Positions 141-43,936 of a stretch of 49,031 nt of DNA are shown here, one piece after another. The DNA is taken from positions 1 to 49,031 of the forward strand of contig JAJVII010000056.1 in assembly GCA_022072085.1 (NCBI GenBank). Reading direction: 5' to 3'. Source of the stretch: Phycisphaerae bacterium (GTDB lineage Bacteria; Planctomycetota; Phycisphaerae; JAJVII01). Below the pieces are notes generated by a model that had not been told where the DNA came from, did no database searches, and saw nothing but the letters and a program-made list of their open reading frames with translations. Every line of letters begins with the position of its first letter. Position 1 is the first letter of the stretch. The translations under genes were made by a program, and so were the position numbers.

Positions 141-926
141 TCAGCCCCTGCGGCGTGGCCGGAGACCGCCGGCCAGCCCTGCACCACCGACCAGCAGCAG
201 GCCCAGCGTCGCCGGCTCGGGGACCGGCGCCGGGTCGTATTCGATCCGCACCAGCGTGACCCCGCCATAGTTGCCGCCGCCGACATAGCCGTAGGGGCTG
301 TTGATCTTGAACCCGTAGACCAGGTCAGCCGCCGGATCAAACCCGCTGACGGCGCTCAGCAAGACGTGCATCGTCTTGGTCTGGCCGGCCGAGAAGGAAC
401 CCAGGTCGGACAACTGGCCCAGCGTGCGTGTGGCGGTCGCCGCGGCGGTCTGGTCGTAGGTATACAGCACGATCGTGTCGTCGCTGCCGCTGGCGCCGTT
501 GAATGTGGCGGCGAAGGCGTTGTCGTTGCGGAAGACCAGGTCGATGTAGGTGGCCGTCGAGACGTCCAGGGCGTTGCTCGCGTTGTAGACCAGCAGGCCT
601 GCGTTGCCGTTGCTCGTGTAGGCCCCGTTGCCGGTGCCGATCTGCATGTTGCCGTACGACACGGTCGCGACCATGGCGGTCGCACCGCCACCGACGTCGG
701 GGAAGTTGTCGTAGCGGCCGCCGATCTCCCAGCCGGTCAGCAGGCCCGAGCCGGGCCCGAGGTTGAAGCCGTTGTAGTTGGCCGACGTGCTGCTGAAGTT
801 CAATGGCGGAGTCACGTTCGAGAAATCCTCGATGGTCACAACAGCCGCGCCGGCCGGGCCGGCCAGCAGCGCCGTTGTCGCCGCGACCGCCAGGGCCGCA
901 AGGATTGTTCGCATCGTGCGAGTCAT
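141..926 (-). CDS. PEP-CTERM sorting domain protein
   Basis: Predicted secreted or surface protein of 261 residues. The chosen ATG at 926 has AGGAG seven to eight bases upstream (939-935) and starts a clean signal peptide (MTRTMRTILAALAVAATT, Ala-rich cleavage region); a longer frame adds 18 residues without a ribosome site. The middle is Gly-, Asn- and Ser-rich with beta-strand-like alternation and no catalytic motif that I recognise. The last 27 or so residues are a classical PEP-CTERM tail: VPEPATLGLLLVGG, a short hydrophobic helix and an Arg cluster. In this family an exosortase cleaves the tail and the protein is exported to the surface or exopolymer. It is the last of three such genes, 46 bp after the previous one, and is probably expressed from the sigma-54 promoter at 2516-2531. 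Confidence 0.85.
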   Translation of the reverse strand: MTRTMRTILAALAVAATTALLAGPAGAAVVTIEDFSNVTPPLNFSSTSANYNGFNLGPGSGLLTGWEIGGRYDNFPDVGGGATAMVATVSYGNMQIGTGNGAYTSNGNAGLLVYNASNALDVSTATYIDLVFRNDNAFAATFNGASGSDDTIVLYTYDQTAAATATRTLGQLSDLGSFSAGQTKTMHVLLSAVSGFDPAADLVYGFKINSPYGYVGGGNYGGVTLVRIEYDPAPVPEPATLGLLLVGGAGLAGGLRPRRRG

Positions 927-972
927 CTGTGATTCTCCTGCATGGCGGAAAACGTTGATCCCGCCTCGATAC

Positions 973-1689
973 TCACGCACCGCGGCGCCGCCGGATGCGC
1001 CGCCCGATCAGCCCCAGCCCGCCCAGGCACAGCAGCCCCAGCGTCGCCGGCTCGGGAACAGCAGTGACCGAGGCAATCTCAATGGCCATGATGCTACTGT
1101 TCGTGGTCGTGTAAGTAAACCAGATGGACGGCTGGGCGTCGTAGTTGCCGCTGGCCCCGTCCGGATCGAACAGAACCGTGCTGAGCGTGTGCGTGTCGCT
1201 GATGCTGGCCAGGTCTCCGACGACCATGTCCGCGCGGACGACCGTGAAAAGCGTGTCGTCGTGGGCCAGAGCGTTGTAAGTCGACGGAGAAGAGTATTGC
1301 CAGTCGCGCATGTACAGCGTCACCTGATAGTCGCCGGCCGGCAGGTTCCAGATGATCAACTTGTAGCCGCTGATCGGGCCGGAGAAGTCTTCCTGAAGCG
1401 ACGTGCCGTATCCGGCGGGCCAGGTCCCGGTGACCGGGCGGGCGGCGCTGGGCTGGTTTGACTTGAGCCATCCGTTATAGCCCGCACGCGCCCCCCCGCC
1501 GAGATCAGCCGTTGTGCTGGAGTTGTTGAGCGCCACATCGAAGCGGTTGTTTCCCGTGACCTGCACCCAGCCGCTTTCCACACCGAACGGCCCCATGTCC
1601 AGGCGGTACACGTCCGCCGACGCCGCCTCGCACGCCGACAGCGATATCACTGCAACAGCCGCTATCGTCAGAAGAGTCTTGTGCGACAT
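973..1689 (-). CDS. PEP-CTERM sorting domain protein, paralog of next gene
   Basis: Exported protein of 238 residues. The ATG at 1689 (MSHKTLL) is preferred over the in-frame ATG six bases upstream because AAGGAG at 1704-1699 is nine bases from it but only three from the other. A signal peptide ends near ACEAASAD. The mature N-terminus reads VYRLDMGPFGVESGW followed by VQVTGNNRFD, and this pattern recurs in the neighbouring upstream gene, so the two are diverged duplicates. The C-terminus is a standard PEP-CTERM tail (VPEPATLGLLCLGG, then Arg-rich). The strand-rich middle suggests a carbohydrate-binding-like sandwich fold, but that is inference. It lies between the other two PEP-CTERM genes with gaps of 59 and 46 bp, consistent with one operon. 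Confidence 0.85.
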   Translation of the reverse strand: MSHKTLLTIAAVAVISLSACEAASADVYRLDMGPFGVESGWVQVTGNNRFDVALNNSSTTADLGGGARAGYNGWLKSNQPSAARPVTGTWPAGYGTSLQEDFSGPISGYKLIIWNLPAGDYQVTLYMRDWQYSSPSTYNALAHDDTLFTVVRADMVVGDLASISDTHTLSTVLFDPDGASGNYDAQPSIWFTYTTTNSSIMAIEIASVTAVPEPATLGLLCLGGLGLIGRRIRRRRGA

Positions 1690-1748
1690 GGTCATATTCT
1701 CCTTAAGCATCTCTCTCGGTTCACTCTCTCATGGCTCACGACATTCCG

Positions 1749-2423
1749 CTACCCGCGGCGGCGCCGCATCTGTCCGCCGATCAGCCCCAGCCCACCCAGG
1801 GCCAGTAGCCCCAGCGTCGCCGGCTCGGGGGCGGCCACGAACGGCTCAAGGATTATTCCGGCAATCTTGCCGTTGTCCGTGTTCGAGGAGTCGATGTCGC
1901 CGATGACAATGTTCTCGCCAGCCGTCAGCGTGATATGGAACGTCGTGGTCAGATCGTCCAGGCTGGCCGCGTTCTTGTTGTAGCCGACCAGCGAAACCTG
2001 CACGCCTTGAAGAGTCATCGTGTCGGGAACGACGGGGTAATCGGGGTCGCCGGAAATGATCTTGAGCGTCCAGGTGCCGGCGGCCAGTCCGCGAATCTCG
2101 AGGGCCGAACCGGCGAAGCCCGTGCCGCTCGGATTGCCGAAGTCGACCAGAAGGGCATCGTAGTCGTGAAAGTTGACCGGCATATTGGGCGTTCCGGTGC
2201 GATTGCGGCCGTTGAGCTTGGCCCAGCCAGGCGCTCCGACCTTGACGCCGTTGCCCAAATCGACGGCGGTGCTGTTGTCGAACCGGTTGTCGCCCGACAC
2301 AGCGGTCCAACCCGACTGGGTCGGCGAACCGTTGATCTGAACGTCGAGCATGTACACGTCCGCGTGGGCCAGGCCTGCCCACGTCAGGACAATGACCGTC
2401 ATCGCTGATGCAAGTGATTTCAT
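1749..2423 (-). CDS. PEP-CTERM sorting domain protein, first of operon
   Basis: Exported protein of 224 residues. The ATG at 2423 follows a perfect AGGAGG (2437-2432) with an eight-base spacer. A signal peptide ends at about AHAD. The start of the mature protein, VYMLDVQINGSPTQSGW then AVSGDNRFD and DLGNGVKVGAPGWAKLNG, aligns with the downstream paralog (shared V-Y-x-L-D, S-G-W, NRFD, DLG, GW). The C-terminal tail has PEPATLGLLALGG and an Arg run, so it should be an exosortase substrate. As the promoter-proximal gene it sits about 80 nt behind the predicted sigma-54 start site. That leader has a hairpin at 2468-2486 (CTCGCCC/GGGCGAG). Function beyond surface display is unknown. Confidence 0.88.
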   Translation of the reverse strand: MKSLASAMTVIVLTWAGLAHADVYMLDVQINGSPTQSGWTAVSGDNRFDNSTAVDLGNGVKVGAPGWAKLNGRNRTGTPNMPVNFHDYDALLVDFGNPSGTGFAGSALEIRGLAAGTWTLKIISGDPDYPVVPDTMTLQGVQVSLVGYNKNAASLDDLTTTFHITLTAGENIVIGDIDSSNTDNGKIAGIILEPFVAAPEPATLGLLALGGLGLIGGQMRRRRG

Positions 2424-2515: not shown

Positions 2516-2531
2516 TGCAAATGCCGTGCCA
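2516..2531 (-). promoter_or_regulatory. Sigma-54 promoter of the PEP-CTERM operon
   Basis: The minus strand reads C-TGGCACG-gcat-TTGCA, an exact match to the sigma-54 consensus YTGGCACG-N4-TTGCW, with the GG (-24) and GC (-12) elements at the required spacing. Transcription would start near 2505, leaving an 80-nt leader before the ATG at 2423. Exosortase/PEP-CTERM systems are known to be linked to sigma-54 and to the PrsK/PrsR two-component pair, which fits. An upstream dyad at 2651-2668 is a candidate activator site. Confidence 0.82.
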
Positions 2532-38335: not shown

Positions 38336-39574
38336 ATGACGGGGTTGCGATACATCATGGCCCGGCGACGGCTGCGCGAACTGTTCGCGGCGGCCGGCAC
38401 AGGCATGGCCGCCACACTCTGCGCCGCAGCCGTCACGGTGCTGGCGTCGCGCTCGCCGGCCGGGGGCGGCCCGGCTGAATTGGAACTCGACCTGCTCCGC
38501 ATGCTGCTGTTCGCGACGGGGATCGCCGTCGGCTGGCCCTGCCTGCACGTCATCCTGCGGCACGCCCGGCCGAACTCGCGCATCTGCAACCTGTCGCTGC
38601 TCGCGGCGGCGGCCTGCATCGGGCTGATGCGGTCGCAGCCTGACTCAGGCTGGTTCTTCGCCTGGCTGTTCATGCTGGGCATGTTCGGCGTGGGGATCGA
38701 CCGGACCGTGGCCGAGCGTTACGAGCGGCTGGTCCCGCGCCGGCTCCTGTCGGCGGTACGGGCGACGGACCTGGCGGGGCTGGCGATGCTGGTGGGGGCA
38801 ATCCTGCTGGTCGTCGGCGTCTGGGGCGACGCGGACTGGGCGCGGCGGTGGGGGGCGATCCGGCCCTGGACGCTCGCGGCGGCGGCGGCGGTCTTCGGCC
38901 TGCTGTGGACGGTGACGACAGCCGTCCGCTACGCGCGGGCGCCGATCTCCGCGTTTCGCTGGTTCCTCTACAACGTGATCTGGTTCATGACGCGGTGGTA
39001 TCACGGGATGACGCCGCGCGGCCGCGTGCATCTGCCCAAGCGGGGCGGCGCGGTGATGGCCGCAACGCACGTCTCGACGATCGACCCGATCCTGCTCCAG
39101 GCCAGCTGCCGGCGGCTGCTGCGCTGGGTCATTGCCCGCGAGTATTTCGAGATGAAGGCGTTCGGGTGGCTCTACGAGTTGGCTGGCTGCATTCCGGTCA
39201 ACCGCAGCAAGCCGGAGGTCGGGGCGACGCGGACGGCGCTGCGGTTGCTGGAGTCCGGCGAGATCGTGGGCATCTTCCCCTACGGCGGGATTCGGCCCGG
39301 TCCGGACGCACCCATGCCGTTCAAGCCCGGGGCGGCCAGCCTGGCGCTGCGGGCCCGCGTACCGCTGATCCCCGTGCGGATCATTCACCTGAACCATCGC
39401 GGGATGGTGGCTGATTACCTTCGGCCGCACCGCGGCGTCGTCGTCCAGTGGGGCCGACCGATCGGGCTGGACGATCTCTACGACGCACCGGACCGCGAAG
39501 CGGCGGTGGCTGAGGCGTCCGCCCGCCTGGCCCGCGCGCTCAACGCCCCAGCCGACGCCGGCGCGCAGGGGTAG
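38336..39574 (+). CDS. PlsC-like 1-acyl-glycerol-phosphate acyltransferase with membrane N-terminus
   Basis: Membrane protein of 412 residues. The first 200 residues hold about five helices (for example FAWLFMLGMFGVGI and LAGLAMLVGAILLVVGVW), not usual for PlsC. The C-terminal domain has acyltransferase block I THVSTID (H-x4-D), block III-like CIPVNRSKP and block IV FKPGAASLALRARVPLIPVRI. Block II reads GIFPYGGIRPG, with Tyr where the catalytic-site Glu (FPEGTR) is expected. It probably transfers an acyl chain to a lipid precursor, though the changed block II suggests another acceptor. The ATG at 38336 is chosen by the promoter; a GTG four codons earlier overlaps the -10 box. Confidence 0.8.
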   Translation: MTGLRYIMARRRLRELFAAAGTGMAATLCAAAVTVLASRSPAGGGPAELELDLLRMLLFATGIAVGWPCLHVILRHARPNSRICNLSLLAAAACIGLMRSQPDSGWFFAWLFMLGMFGVGIDRTVAERYERLVPRRLLSAVRATDLAGLAMLVGAILLVVGVWGDADWARRWGAIRPWTLAAAAAVFGLLWTVTTAVRYARAPISAFRWFLYNVIWFMTRWYHGMTPRGRVHLPKRGGAVMAATHVSTIDPILLQASCRRLLRWVIAREYFEMKAFGWLYELAGCIPVNRSKPEVGATRTALRLLESGEIVGIFPYGGIRPGPDAPMPFKPGAASLALRARVPLIPVRIIHLNHRGMVADYLRPHRGVVVQWGRPIGLDDLYDAPDREAAVAEASARLARALNAPADAGAQG

Positions 39575-39621
39575 CCTGTCCCTGGGTCGTCACTGCCTTG
39601 GCATTGACAAGGGGTTGCCCG

Positions 39622-39729
39622 CTAGCCGCGGGCAGGCTTCTTGGGTCGCGGCTTAGGGCGTTTCCATCCGCCCAGACCGCCGAGGCCGCCAAGACTCAGG
39701 CCCGAGTTTGTCCACCAGCCCCCAGTCAT
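39622..39729 (-). CDS. 35-residue Gly/Trp-rich cationic small protein, sigma-54 controlled
   Basis: A small ORF on the minus strand with an excellent AAGGAG (about 8 bases before the ATG at 39729) and stop TAG at 39624-39622. The product starts MTGGWWTNSGLSL, continues GGLGGLGGW (14-22) and ends in a basic, Pro-rich tail KRPKPRPKKPARG (23-35). It has ten Gly, three Trp, four Lys, three Arg and no acidic residue. It has no signal peptide. The Gly/Leu stretch followed by a basic tail recalls, loosely, the last part of PEP-CTERM tails without the PEP motif. A perfect sigma-54 promoter lies 65-90 bases upstream. A hairpin, TGCCCGC/GCGGGCA (39618-39636), spans the stop. I know no family for it. 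Confidence 0.65.
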   Translation of the reverse strand: MTGGWWTNSGLSLGGLGGLGGWKRPKPRPKKPARG

Positions 39730-39804
39730 CTCGCTCTCTCCTTCGCGCCACCTGTAAGTATCTCCGCCCGTATGGAGGACGAATGTATGTATGCTCTAGG
39801 TAGT

Positions 39805-39820
39805 AGCAAACTGCGTGCCA
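39805..39820 (-). promoter_or_regulatory. Sigma-54 promoter of the 35-residue gene
   Basis: Minus strand C-TGGCACG-cagt-TTGCT, an exact match to YTGGCACG-N4-TTGCW. Start near 39794, giving a 65-nt leader to the ATG at 39729. Two upstream dyads at 39913-39969 are candidate activator sites. Confidence 0.82.
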
Positions 39821-40003: not shown

Positions 40004-40405
40004 TTACTTGCCGGTCTGGAGGTCGGTCTCGTCGGGGGCCAGACGCTCGCCGCGGTCGGCTGCGATGAACGCCCAGACCCGGCCGTTGCGGACGCGGACG
40101 GGATAGACCGCGACGCCCATGGCCCAGTCGTCGCCGGTCTTGCCGGTGTTCAGATTGAACGGCCAGTGATGCCACGGGCAGATCACGTGGCCGTCGCGGA
40201 CATAGCCCGCGCCCAGGCTGCCGCCGGCGTGTGGGCAGGTATTGTCCACCACGAAGAACCGGCCGCCGTCGTTGCAGACCGCCAGTGCCCGATCGTGCGC
40301 GACGACGGTGGTCGCGTCACCTGGCGCGATGTCCTGCGCCGCAACCAGGTCCACCCAGCAGCCGCCGGCCGGGCTGTCGTCCGTTGTGAAGAGATCTTCG
40401 TCCAT
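40004..40405 (-). CDS. Rieske [2Fe-2S] protein, NirD-like
   Basis: Soluble protein of 133 residues. The cluster ligands are in NTCPHAGGSLG (Cys-x-His) and VICPWHHWPF (Cys-x2-His), spaced as in NirD and dioxygenase-type ferredoxins. It probably delivers electrons to, or is a subunit of, the nitrite/sulfite reductase encoded 52 bp upstream on the same strand. There is no Shine-Dalgarno sequence; a good promoter ends nine bases before the ATG, so it can be transcribed alone as a leaderless message. A longer frame reading into the reductase gene is rejected for the same reason. Confidence 0.88.
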   Translation of the reverse strand: MDEDLFTTDDSPAGGCWVDLVAAQDIAPGDATTVVAHDRALAVCNDGGRFFVVDNTCPHAGGSLGAGYVRDGHVICPWHHWPFNLNTGKTGDDWAMGVAVYPVRVRNGRVWAFIAADRGERLAPDETDLQTGK

Positions 40406-40457: not shown

Positions 40458-42308
40458 TCAGAACCGGTAGTCCTGCGGCACGAAGGGCGGATCGTGGCTC
40501 TTCTCCAGCAGCGGCGCCAGCGCCGGCAGGCTGCGCAGGTGATCGACGATCGCCTGCGACCCGACGCGATGGTGGAACTCGCCCATGCTCTCCCGCTCCG
40601 ACTGCCGTCCGGCCCGGTAGAAGTCGAACAGGGCGGCGCAGACGTCGGCCACCTGCCCGCGGGGGACCTGGCGGAGGAACCATCGTTCGGACACGCCGTC
40701 GGCGTCAGCGGCAATCACCCAGGCGCCCTGGCGCCGGCCGTCCTCGCTGCCGCCCAGCTTGAGGGCGTAGAGGTCGGGCCCTTGCCCCACCCAGCCGAGG
40801 GTCTTTGTGGCCGGCCGGAAGCACTGCCGCTCGCAGCCGGTGATGCCGACCGACTCGGCCACGTCGCCGTAACCGCGGCGTTCCAGTTCATCCATCAGCT
40901 CCGGTTCGAACTGCTCGCTTTCGGTGTAGCTCAGCCGGCAGGTGTAGAGCCCGACGCACGCGCCGCTGAGCGTGCGCAGCCGCGAGGCTGGCTTCCCGTT
41001 CACCCGCCCCTGCCCGAAGCGGGCCAGGTCGGCTTCAAATTCCTGCTTCTGAACGGCGGATATGTCGGTGAACAGCAGATCCTGGTTGGGGGTCGTGGTC
41101 ACGCTCACGCCGTCGTATTTCTCCAGCATGTGGCGGACCATGGACTTGAACTGCCCGCGCGGGCCGTCCTGGAGTCGGCCGTTTTCGATCCACGCGCCGT
41201 AGGCCCATCGGCCGTTGCTCGGCTGGAGCGTCCAGCCGTGGTGCATCATCCGCGGGCCGGGCTCGACGGAGGCGTCCGGCTCGTCCAGATCGACGCCGGC
41301 GTCGCGCAGTTGCTGCCGCCACCACTGGACGCCGTTGGCCCAGACGACGTATTTCAGCCGGGCCCAGTGGCGGTTCTTGCGGTCGCCCCATTCCTTGTGG
41401 ATCGTCGCGATCGCGTTGAGCGCCGCGACGGTGTCCGCGACACGGATGATGCCCAGCGGCTGGCCGTGCGCGGGGAAGGTGGCCTTGCCGTTCTTCTCGC
41501 CCTGCCCGCCGCCAACGTAGACCTGGAGCCGCCGCACGGCGTCGCCGTCGATCACCGGCACGAGGCCCACGTCGTTGGTCCGCGCCTCGACGCAGTTGTC
41601 GCGGTGCAACTGGCCGGTCTGCGGGTCGCGGTGAACAGCCGCGAAGGCGACCTTGAACTTGCGGTTAAGCAGTTTGTCGCCGTAGTCGAAGCGGGTCTCG
41701 GGCGAGCGCACGAACTGCGGATCAATCTCGAAGATCTGGATGTGGGCCGCCGGGGCGACCTGGAAGAAGCCGGCCACCTCGTGCGCCAGCGCGTGCCCGT
41801 TGAACACGTCGCTGAACCGGGCCAGCGGGCAGGCCATCACGTTGCGGGCGTTGTCGCCGCAGCCATTCATCGTGTAGAAGCCCGTGCGGGCGATGGTCCG
41901 CACCATCTCGACCACGTCGTGTTTCTTGACCCAGTGGAACTGGATGTTCTGCCGCGTGGTCACCCGCAGCGACGGGGCGATGTCCGGGCCGGCGGTCATC
42001 CGCTCGCTCAGGTCGTCCAGAATGGCCCACTGCTCGCGGCCGAGCGGCCCGCCGCCGGGTATGCTCATGCGGACCATGTACATCCAGTCCTTCTGCCGCC
42101 CGGTCGAAGCCCGGTTGTATTCGGTGTAGATGCCGTGCGACTTGGCCACCTGCTGCATCGCCGAGCTGATCTCGTCGCTGGAGGCGTCGCGGAAGTCCTC
42201 ATACAACGTGCCGCGGACGCCGTTGGAGGCGGCCTTGATCAACTCCTCCTTGCAGAGCTGGTCATCGGGCGTATGGAAACTGGGCTGAGGAGCGTCGATC
42301 TTGAGCAC
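40458..42308 (-). CDS. Siroheme nitrite/sulfite reductase (ferredoxin-type)
   Basis: Protein of 616 residues of the COG0155 family, a six-electron reductase of nitrite or sulfite. The siroheme-[4Fe-4S] cysteines are in GACVGLYTC (Cys-x5-Cys) and GITGCERQC (Cys-x3-Cys). Family blocks TRQNIQFHWV and GCGDNARNVMACP line the siroheme pocket. The start is GTG at 42308, six bases after AAGGA; the open frame upstream to 42956 has shuffled Arg-rich sequence and crosses the promoter, so it is rejected. A NirD-like Rieske protein next door favours nitrite, while an Rrf2-type operator would also suit sulfite; the choice stays open. Confidence 0.88.
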   Translation of the reverse strand: MLKIDAPQPSFHTPDDQLCKEELIKAASNGVRGTLYEDFRDASSDEISSAMQQVAKSHGIYTEYNRASTGRQKDWMYMVRMSIPGGGPLGREQWAILDDLSERMTAGPDIAPSLRVTTRQNIQFHWVKKHDVVEMVRTIARTGFYTMNGCGDNARNVMACPLARFSDVFNGHALAHEVAGFFQVAPAAHIQIFEIDPQFVRSPETRFDYGDKLLNRKFKVAFAAVHRDPQTGQLHRDNCVEARTNDVGLVPVIDGDAVRRLQVYVGGGQGEKNGKATFPAHGQPLGIIRVADTVAALNAIATIHKEWGDRKNRHWARLKYVVWANGVQWWRQQLRDAGVDLDEPDASVEPGPRMMHHGWTLQPSNGRWAYGAWIENGRLQDGPRGQFKSMVRHMLEKYDGVSVTTTPNQDLLFTDISAVQKQEFEADLARFGQGRVNGKPASRLRTLSGACVGLYTCRLSYTESEQFEPELMDELERRGYGDVAESVGITGCERQCFRPATKTLGWVGQGPDLYALKLGGSEDGRRQGAWVIAADADGVSERWFLRQVPRGQVADVCAALFDFYRAGRQSERESMGEFHHRVGSQAIVDHLRSLPALAPLLEKSHDPPFVPQDYRF

Positions 42309-42312
42309 GGGG

Positions 42313-42388
42313 GTTCCTTCACTGTGGAACAGGGGAAATAACCTATAATTCCGATAGGAATAGTATCGCCGGTGCGGCAGTTCGTCAA
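42313..42388 (-). promoter_or_regulatory. Promoter, Rrf2-like operator and leader hairpin of the reductase gene
   Basis: Minus strand: TTGACG (42388-42383), 17-bp spacer, TACTAT (42365-42360). Overlapping the -10 box and start is the dyad ATTCCTATCGGAAT (42361-42348), with partly matching TA-rich flanks. This is the look of Rrf2-family operators (CymR, IscR, NsrR types). Further on, GTTCC/GGAAC (42330-42313) can pair over the AAGGA ribosome site. Binding protein is not identified. Confidence 0.6.
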
Positions 42389-42529
42389 GGCGATTTTGCG
42401 TTGCCTGTGCGGATGGGTCAGGAATAGGGGTCGGGGCATCGACCCGACCCAAGGGGGGCAACCGACGGCCGTGCTCGCCCGCGGCTCGCAGCCAAACAGG
42501 CCTTCTGTCGGGAGGGCGATCGGCCCTTT

Positions 42530-43936
42530 TTACCGGATGATCGCGGCGTCGGCCCAGTCCGCGCGGTCCAGCACATCGCCGTTGGCGCCGTAGTCGACCA
42601 GCAGTTCGATCTTCCTGGCGCCGCCGAGTTGCAGGTTGACGCTCTGCGGACCGTCCTTCTGCTCCAGGCCCTTCTTCGACCAGGCGACCTTGCCGTCCAG
42701 CAGCACCTGGACGTCGACGTTGGCCCGCGGGCCGCTGTCGTCGTCCAGCCCGACCAGGGCATGGAACCGCGTCGCTCCGTCGGCGTCGAAGACCAGCCGC
42801 GTCCGCGAGTGGACGCCGATGCCGTGGGCGTAGGCCTGGCCGTTCAGCCGCATCACCGCGCCGGCGACGTTGAGCCCGAACTGCGGCGGCCACTTCACGG
42901 TCAGGAACGGTTGATAGTCCACCGCCGACGGCGTCAGTTCGTCCAGCCAGCGCCATCGGCCGTTGTCCACCGCCAGCGCCACAACGTGCCGGTCGGGCAG
43001 CAGATCCACCTTCTGTTCGCCGACGCGGCGGGCGCGGAGCGTGTGGGCGTCCCAGTCCGCCTGCTCAGCCAGCAGCCGCGAGCCGTTGCTCATCTCGACC
43101 CACAGCCGCGGCGGATCGCCGGCGGCCGGCGGCGGCGGGTCGGGGTTGACCAGCCGGGCCATCGCCAGCACGTCCAGCGACACCGTCACGTCGCCCAGCG
43201 GGCCGGTCACGACCAGGCCCTTGGGCCCCAGCGCGGTCACCGTGCCCTTGAGCACCTCGCCGTTGGCCAGCCGGATGCTGTCCTCGGTCTCGTCGGCCTG
43301 CGGGCGCAGGCGGCCCTGGAGGGTCGGCAGCGACTGGCCCACTCGGCCGGCCGGCGAAATGACGCCGCGAATCCGCCGCAGCGGGACCTTCACCTGACCC
43401 ATGCCGAACACCGAAATCGTGACGTCGCGCTGCCCGCCGTCGCTGATGAGCCCGACGATCCATTCGCCGCTGGTGAGCACGACGGCGGTCGCGTTCTCGG
43501 GCATCCGCTCCAGCGGGGTGAGGCTCTCGTCGGCGACGGTGATCCGCACCAGGTCGGGGATGGAGACGTCCACGCGTCGGCCGTCGGCCCAGACCGCAAG
43601 CGCGCCGGGTTTGGCTGCATCGGGCGCGAGTTTGAGAGCGAGCAGCCGCCCGCCGGAAATTCGCCGGTCGATGGTCCGCACGCCGACCAGGCTGGGCCGA
43701 TCGGTCAGGTCCGGCGGCGCCGGCGTGGCAGGCTGAGGCGCAGGAACGGCCGCGGGCGCCGCCGGCTGAGTCGTCGTTGCCGCCGCGGGCTGGGTGGTCG
43801 GGACGTCCGCGCGGGCGCTCAGTGCGGTGAACGATGCAGCGGCAATCAAGAGTCCAACCAATGCACTGGCTGAACTTCGGACAAGCCAATGTCCCGGGCG
43901 CAAGCCGGCGTCCTGGTTTCGAGTGCGAAGAGTCAT
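42530..43936 (-). CDS. Secreted NPCBM-domain protein
   Basis: Exported protein of 468 residues. A signal sequence (LVGLLIAAASFTALSARA) is preceded by a basic N-terminus, then a Thr/Ala/Pro-rich linker. The middle has two or more barrel-like repeats (LTSGEWIVGLISDGG, LANGEVLKGTVTALGPKGLVVTG, MSNGSRLLAEQADWD). The last 150 residues are a NPCBM (novel putative carbohydrate-binding module) domain: AYAHGIGVHSRTRLVFD, RFHALVGLDDDSG and IELLVDYGANGD. It presumably binds sugars at the cell surface. It starts four bases after the stop of the upstream toroid gene (TGA-gacg-ATG) and is the last gene of that operon. No terminator seen on the minus strand. Confidence 0.83.
   Translation of the reverse strand: MTLRTRNQDAGLRPGHWLVRSSASALVGLLIAAASFTALSARADVPTTQPAAATTTQPAAPAAVPAPQPATPAPPDLTDRPSLVGVRTIDRRISGGRLLALKLAPDAAKPGALAVWADGRRVDVSIPDLVRITVADESLTPLERMPENATAVVLTSGEWIVGLISDGGQRDVTISVFGMGQVKVPLRRIRGVISPAGRVGQSLPTLQGRLRPQADETEDSIRLANGEVLKGTVTALGPKGLVVTGPLGDVTVSLDVLAMARLVNPDPPPPAAGDPPRLWVEMSNGSRLLAEQADWDAHTLRARRVGEQKVDLLPDRHVVALAVDNGRWRWLDELTPSAVDYQPFLTVKWPPQFGLNVAGAVMRLNGQAYAHGIGVHSRTRLVFDADGATRFHALVGLDDDSGPRANVDVQVLLDGKVAWSKKGLEQKDGPQSVNLQLGGARKIELLVDYGANGDVLDRADWADAAIIR

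Follow-up and report, generated by a model that had tools for sequence, protein, structure and literature searches.

A putative small-protein family with a Pro/Lys/Arg tail, encoded beside a Rieske ferredoxin gene in two genera of Phycisphaerae

Small inner-membrane proteins of bacteria include CydX and MgtS, which the putative small protein described here resembles in size and in having an apolar stretch flanked by Trp and a basic end. We found no sequence relation to proteins of this type, however, and the apolar stretch of the small peptide is Gly-rich and weakly hydrophobic, its membrane location being putative. A second point of comparison is the PEP-CTERM sorting signal (TIGR02595). Both have a Leu/Gly-rich segment followed by basic residues and, in the genome analysed here, the same type of sigma-54 promoter, but the peptide lacks a PEP motif and a long hydrophobic helix and has no profile match; its tail is Pro-rich, in contrast to the Arg cluster of the signal, and the whole protein measures just 26–35 amino acids. 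RpoN-dependent transcription of a PEP-CTERM gene has been shown experimentally in Aquincola (PMC9850573). Proline-rich antimicrobial peptides, for which PRP motifs and exit-tunnel binding are described (PMC11678341, PMC13233979), have a comparable Pro/Arg/Lys tail with a PRP tripeptide. The small protein differs from these in lacking a leader, in its Gly/Leu/Trp front half and in being the product of a bacterial chromosomal gene beside a ferredoxin gene.

The window, by which we mean the whole stretch of 49,031 nucleotides that was analysed from a Phycisphaerae bacterium, carries on its minus strand an open reading frame of an ATG, 34 further codons and a TAG (39729–39622). A ribosome-binding site, AAGGAG, lies 8 nt 5′ of the ATG (39738–39743, minus strand). 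The initial annotation had placed a ribosome site, an ATG, 35 codons and a TAG at 39622–39729 without giving a strand; this was exact, and the strand is minus. On the plus strand the same positions hold an unrelated frame without such a peptide. The 35-residue product, MTGGWWTNSGLSLGGLGGLGGWKRPKPRPKKPARG, contains 10 Gly, 3 Trp, 7 Lys/Arg and no Asp or Glu, and our recount agrees with the composition first given. The gene is single-copy in the genome and is flanked by a convergent plus-strand acyltransferase gene (ending at 39574) and a codirectional minus-strand Rieske gene (ending at 40004). Between these two we recognised no further gene, as had been claimed, and the window contains no tRNA or Rfam family. 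A hairpin, GCCCGC-GGCTA-GCGGGC (39620–39636), overlaps the stop codon and is not followed by a T-run.

The order to which the window belongs is represented by two genomes in the set compared, the second of which belongs to a different genus. This genome, Phycisphaerae bacterium STB_87, encodes a homologue, MIATLELGGLWGLGGWKKPPRPAPRK, on contig JAQTVL010000275.1, detected with a single-protein query over the whole genome (E = 1.6e-4). The STB_87 small gene (844–924 of the extracted locus) retains start, ribosome site and stop, reading GAGAGGATAGAGGAATC-ATG...TAA TAG with a double stop. The best alignment score in the 581-nt STB_87 region was 80, against a maximum of 52 over 1000 shuffles, whereas the intergenic and downstream DNA of the two genomes was no more similar than shuffles, the intergenic score falling below the shuffle mean. 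The initial annotation had proposed looking for conserved amino acids with synonymous changes, and STB_87 provides them: the 21 aligned codons comprise 4 identical, 11 synonymous and 6 non-synonymous ones, with 7, 5 and 15 changes at codon positions 1, 2 and 3 (15 of 27 at the third). Within a 14-codon core, 11 residues are kept despite 16 nucleotide changes; when as many changes were placed at random, none of 100,000 trials kept so many residues (mean 5.1). Across the two sequences, the family has 26–35 residues and a core of L-G-G-L-x-G-L-G-G-W-K-[KR]-P, after which comes a Pro/Lys/Arg tail that includes the tripeptide PRP in both; the STB_87 peptide has one Glu in its hydrophobic half. Because synonymous changes are in excess, the homologue occupies the same place and the flanks are dissimilar, we read this pattern as that of a protein under selection, and a conserved promoter or RNA does not account for it. 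A structural RNA was likewise rejected, with no Rfam match and with changes mostly at third codon positions.

No match to MTGGWWTNSGLSLGGLGGLGGWKRPKPRPKKPARG was found in Pfam, NCBIfam, PHROGs or PDB sequences. This and the STB_87 homologue bear out the proposal of an undescribed small peptide gene, and we consider the reading frame very probably a real protein-coding gene that has escaped description. A phage or plasmid origin was rejected, with no match in IMG/VR or PHROGs and no plasmid match. Searches of about 300–400 genomes of the class Phycisphaerae and of 392 genomes of the phylum gave no further convincing member. The weak class-wide matches that were read individually (some class-wide loci and one phylum-search locus, L149, were left out) had E-values at chance level over the 300–400 or so genomes searched, and each fell within a frame that was long or unrelated and had no convincing start with a ribosome site. 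When 84,980 species were scanned with a strict DNA motif, STB_87 alone was convincing, the matches in Ideonella, Planctomycetales, Deltaproteobacteria and Methylobacterium being unrelated frames. The family thus far looks restricted to this order, of which few genomes exist.

The composition of the peptides suggests how they may act. The front half is made of Gly, Leu and Trp, with Trp at its ends in the window peptide, and the back half of Pro, Lys and Arg. Wimley–White interface sums over 15 residues favour the interface for both peptides (−5.1 and −3.9), and their Kyte–Doolittle means are 0.4 and 1.1, compared with about 1.8 for PEP-CTERM transmembrane tails. Anchored by Trp, the Gly/Leu/Trp half would insert shallowly into the cytoplasmic surface of the inner membrane, and the rigid Pro-basic tail would bind an anionic partner on the cytoplasmic side, for example RNA, lipid head groups or the acidic face of a protein; the peptide might then serve as a small adaptor or modulator bound to the membrane. 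In the window organism it would be made when the PEP-CTERM/exosortase surface programme is on, because its gene lies behind the sigma-54 promoter type of the PEP-CTERM and exosortase genes. A lineage-restricted membrane-surface small protein with its Pro/Lys/Arg tail on an anionic partner is our best guess, and a tentative one for a family known from two sequences. Confidence is modest because we infer both location and expression, and because a structure model of the peptide was uninformative: it was of low confidence and mostly unstructured (pLDDT 64, pTM 0.15), speaking neither for nor against membrane seating.

The main rival to this reading is a role as a redox partner, owing to the Rieske neighbour common to both genera. 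The upstream, codirectional gene encodes a NirD-like Rieske [2Fe-2S] ferredoxin (40004–40405, minus strand, where 40405 is the first residue searched and the exact start may differ; Pfam PF00355, 1.6e-17). The best STB_87 match of this protein (51%) is the product of the gene adjoining the STB_87 small gene, and in both genera the small gene lies downstream on the same strand, at 274 nt in the window and 259 nt in STB_87. It is the sole neighbour conserved in both. In STB_87, an imperfect inverted-repeat element of the type TGGGTGCCATGCC...GGCATGGCACCC, perhaps a mobile palindromic element, lies between the two genes at about 605–715 of the locus. The small protein could therefore be a partner of the ferredoxin or of the oxidoreductase that it serves, docking it at the membrane, for example, as small subunits of other redox complexes do. 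A CysI-like sulfite reductase gene precedes the Rieske gene in the window and would fit such a role, but the 230 nt present upstream of the STB_87 Rieske gene show no CysI homology. Rieske homologues of other Phycisphaerae, at the 30 best loci in the class with L116, L117 and L122 left out, have no such reading frame downstream. The window gene is, moreover, not simply co-transcribed with the Rieske gene, because it has its own sigma-54 promoter after that gene. We consider the redox-partner role unlikely on balance. The CysI-like reading frame itself (40461–42956, minus strand) begins about 230 residues ahead of its first matched domain; either the start is misassigned or the protein has an unusual extension at its N-terminus.

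An antibacterial or self-acting peptide, binding the ribosome tunnel through its Pro-Arg-Pro tail by analogy with proline-rich antimicrobial peptides, would accord with the PRP found in the tails of both members. The motif is too short to mean much, though, and we recognised neither a leader peptide nor any export, processing or immunity gene alongside, so that such an activity appears improbable.

The promoter bears on a possible place in the exosortase/PEP-CTERM route. A perfect sigma-54 (−24/−12) site, TGGCACGCAGTTTGC (39806–39820, minus strand), matches the motif upstream of the PEP-CTERM genes of this genome and ends 76 nt from the ATG of the small gene; other sites of the regulon mostly lie at 35–200. 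A second perfect site in the window (2517–2531, minus strand) precedes a run of three PEP-CTERM genes (144–2423, minus strand). Across the window genome, TGGCACG-N4-TTGC with at most one mismatch occurs 178 times, the reversed control giving 80, and 57 copies are perfect where about 4 are expected from a composition estimate. A PEP-CTERM gene is the first reading frame at 23 of the 57 (a lower bound), and at 9 more the first frame is long and of secreted type, the ends of these frames lying outside the data read; about 32 of the 57 thus probably directly precede genes for PEP-CTERM or similar secreted proteins. The other perfect sites include, by our reading of the frames, ones before flagellar, NtrC-type, PilZ, response-regulator, DnaK and Hsp20 genes, and a few are followed by short frames. 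Two short frames were noted behind perfect sites of the window genome. On contig C3 (91184–91198, plus strand) AGGAGG and a 22-codon frame, VGFFRRKYRIVLLTLATFIALC*, come after the site; the frame resembles a bare signal peptide and may be either a truncated gene or another small peptide under sigma-54. On contig C33 (35130–35144, minus strand) the site precedes a 59-amino-acid frame with a signal-peptide-like start (MFRKGLTRLVLLGMLSSGFITWRHGTAVAG...). The STB_87 genome has 37 motif sites against 4 in the control; among 30 examined, 12 have PEP-CTERM genes and 6 secreted-type genes downstream. A GroEL-like gene also lies behind the motif there, and in both genomes the motif often takes an extended form, TGGCACGC.

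The small gene of STB_87 has no such site: the best candidate in 560–846 of the locus has three mismatches and lacks the GG/GC core. The statement that the small gene shares its kind of promoter with the PEP-CTERM operon consequently holds for the window genome and does not extend to STB_87. Hence either the lineage of the window gained its link to the PEP-CTERM programme or that of STB_87 lost it, and across both genera the protein is the constant part and the promoter the variable part.

The initial annotation had also seen a likeness to PEP-CTERM tails and proposed that the peptide could regulate the exosortase route or act as its decoy. The likeness stands in composition, a Gly/Leu segment followed by basic residues, but goes no further, since MTGGWWTNSGLSLGGLGGLGGWKRPKPRPKKPARG has no PEP box, no signal peptide and no NCBIfam TIGR02595 match, whereas the three PEP-CTERM proteins of the window do match. 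Against 28 PEP-CTERM tails of the window genome the best alignment score was 44 for MTGGWWTNSGLSLGGLGGLGGWKRPKPRPKKPARG and 38 for the STB_87 peptide, and the genuine tails shown score 79–114 against each other. Layout-preserving shuffles equalled the observed score in 5% of cases for the window peptide, placing it slightly above shuffles, and in 18% for the STB_87 peptide, which does no better than they do. With no PEP box, no profile match and a score of 44 against at least 79, a PEP-CTERM protein or fragment was ruled out. Because the likeness is compositional, a regulator, competitor or decoy of sorting is a weak proposal, backed by nothing beyond the shared promoter type, which in the window genome also stands before DnaK, Hsp20, PilZ, NtrC-type and flagellar genes and is missing from the STB_87 small gene; we regard it as doubtful at best. 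That the peptides form a new family working in the exosortase/PEP-CTERM surface programme that sigma-54 controls in Phycisphaerae, being a component of it rather than a sorted substrate, strikes us as quite improbable. A chance reading frame behind a real promoter, perhaps that of a non-coding RNA, would suit its shortness, high GC content and few members, but finds no Rfam match and is contradicted by the synonymous substitution pattern and the syntenic homologue, and we hold it to be highly improbable.

Judged from the two sequences, MTGGWWTNSGLSLGGLGGLGGWKRPKPRPKKPARG and MIATLELGGLWGLGGWKKPPRPAPRK are a new, narrowly distributed small-protein family. Genes this short escape annotation, and this one could be detected because protein-level selection is visible between two genera that share the same neighbouring gene. 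From the promoter in the window, the sigma-54 regulon in these bacteria seems to extend past PEP-CTERM proteins, and in a phylum whose small proteins are little charted the family offers a concrete one that can be tested.
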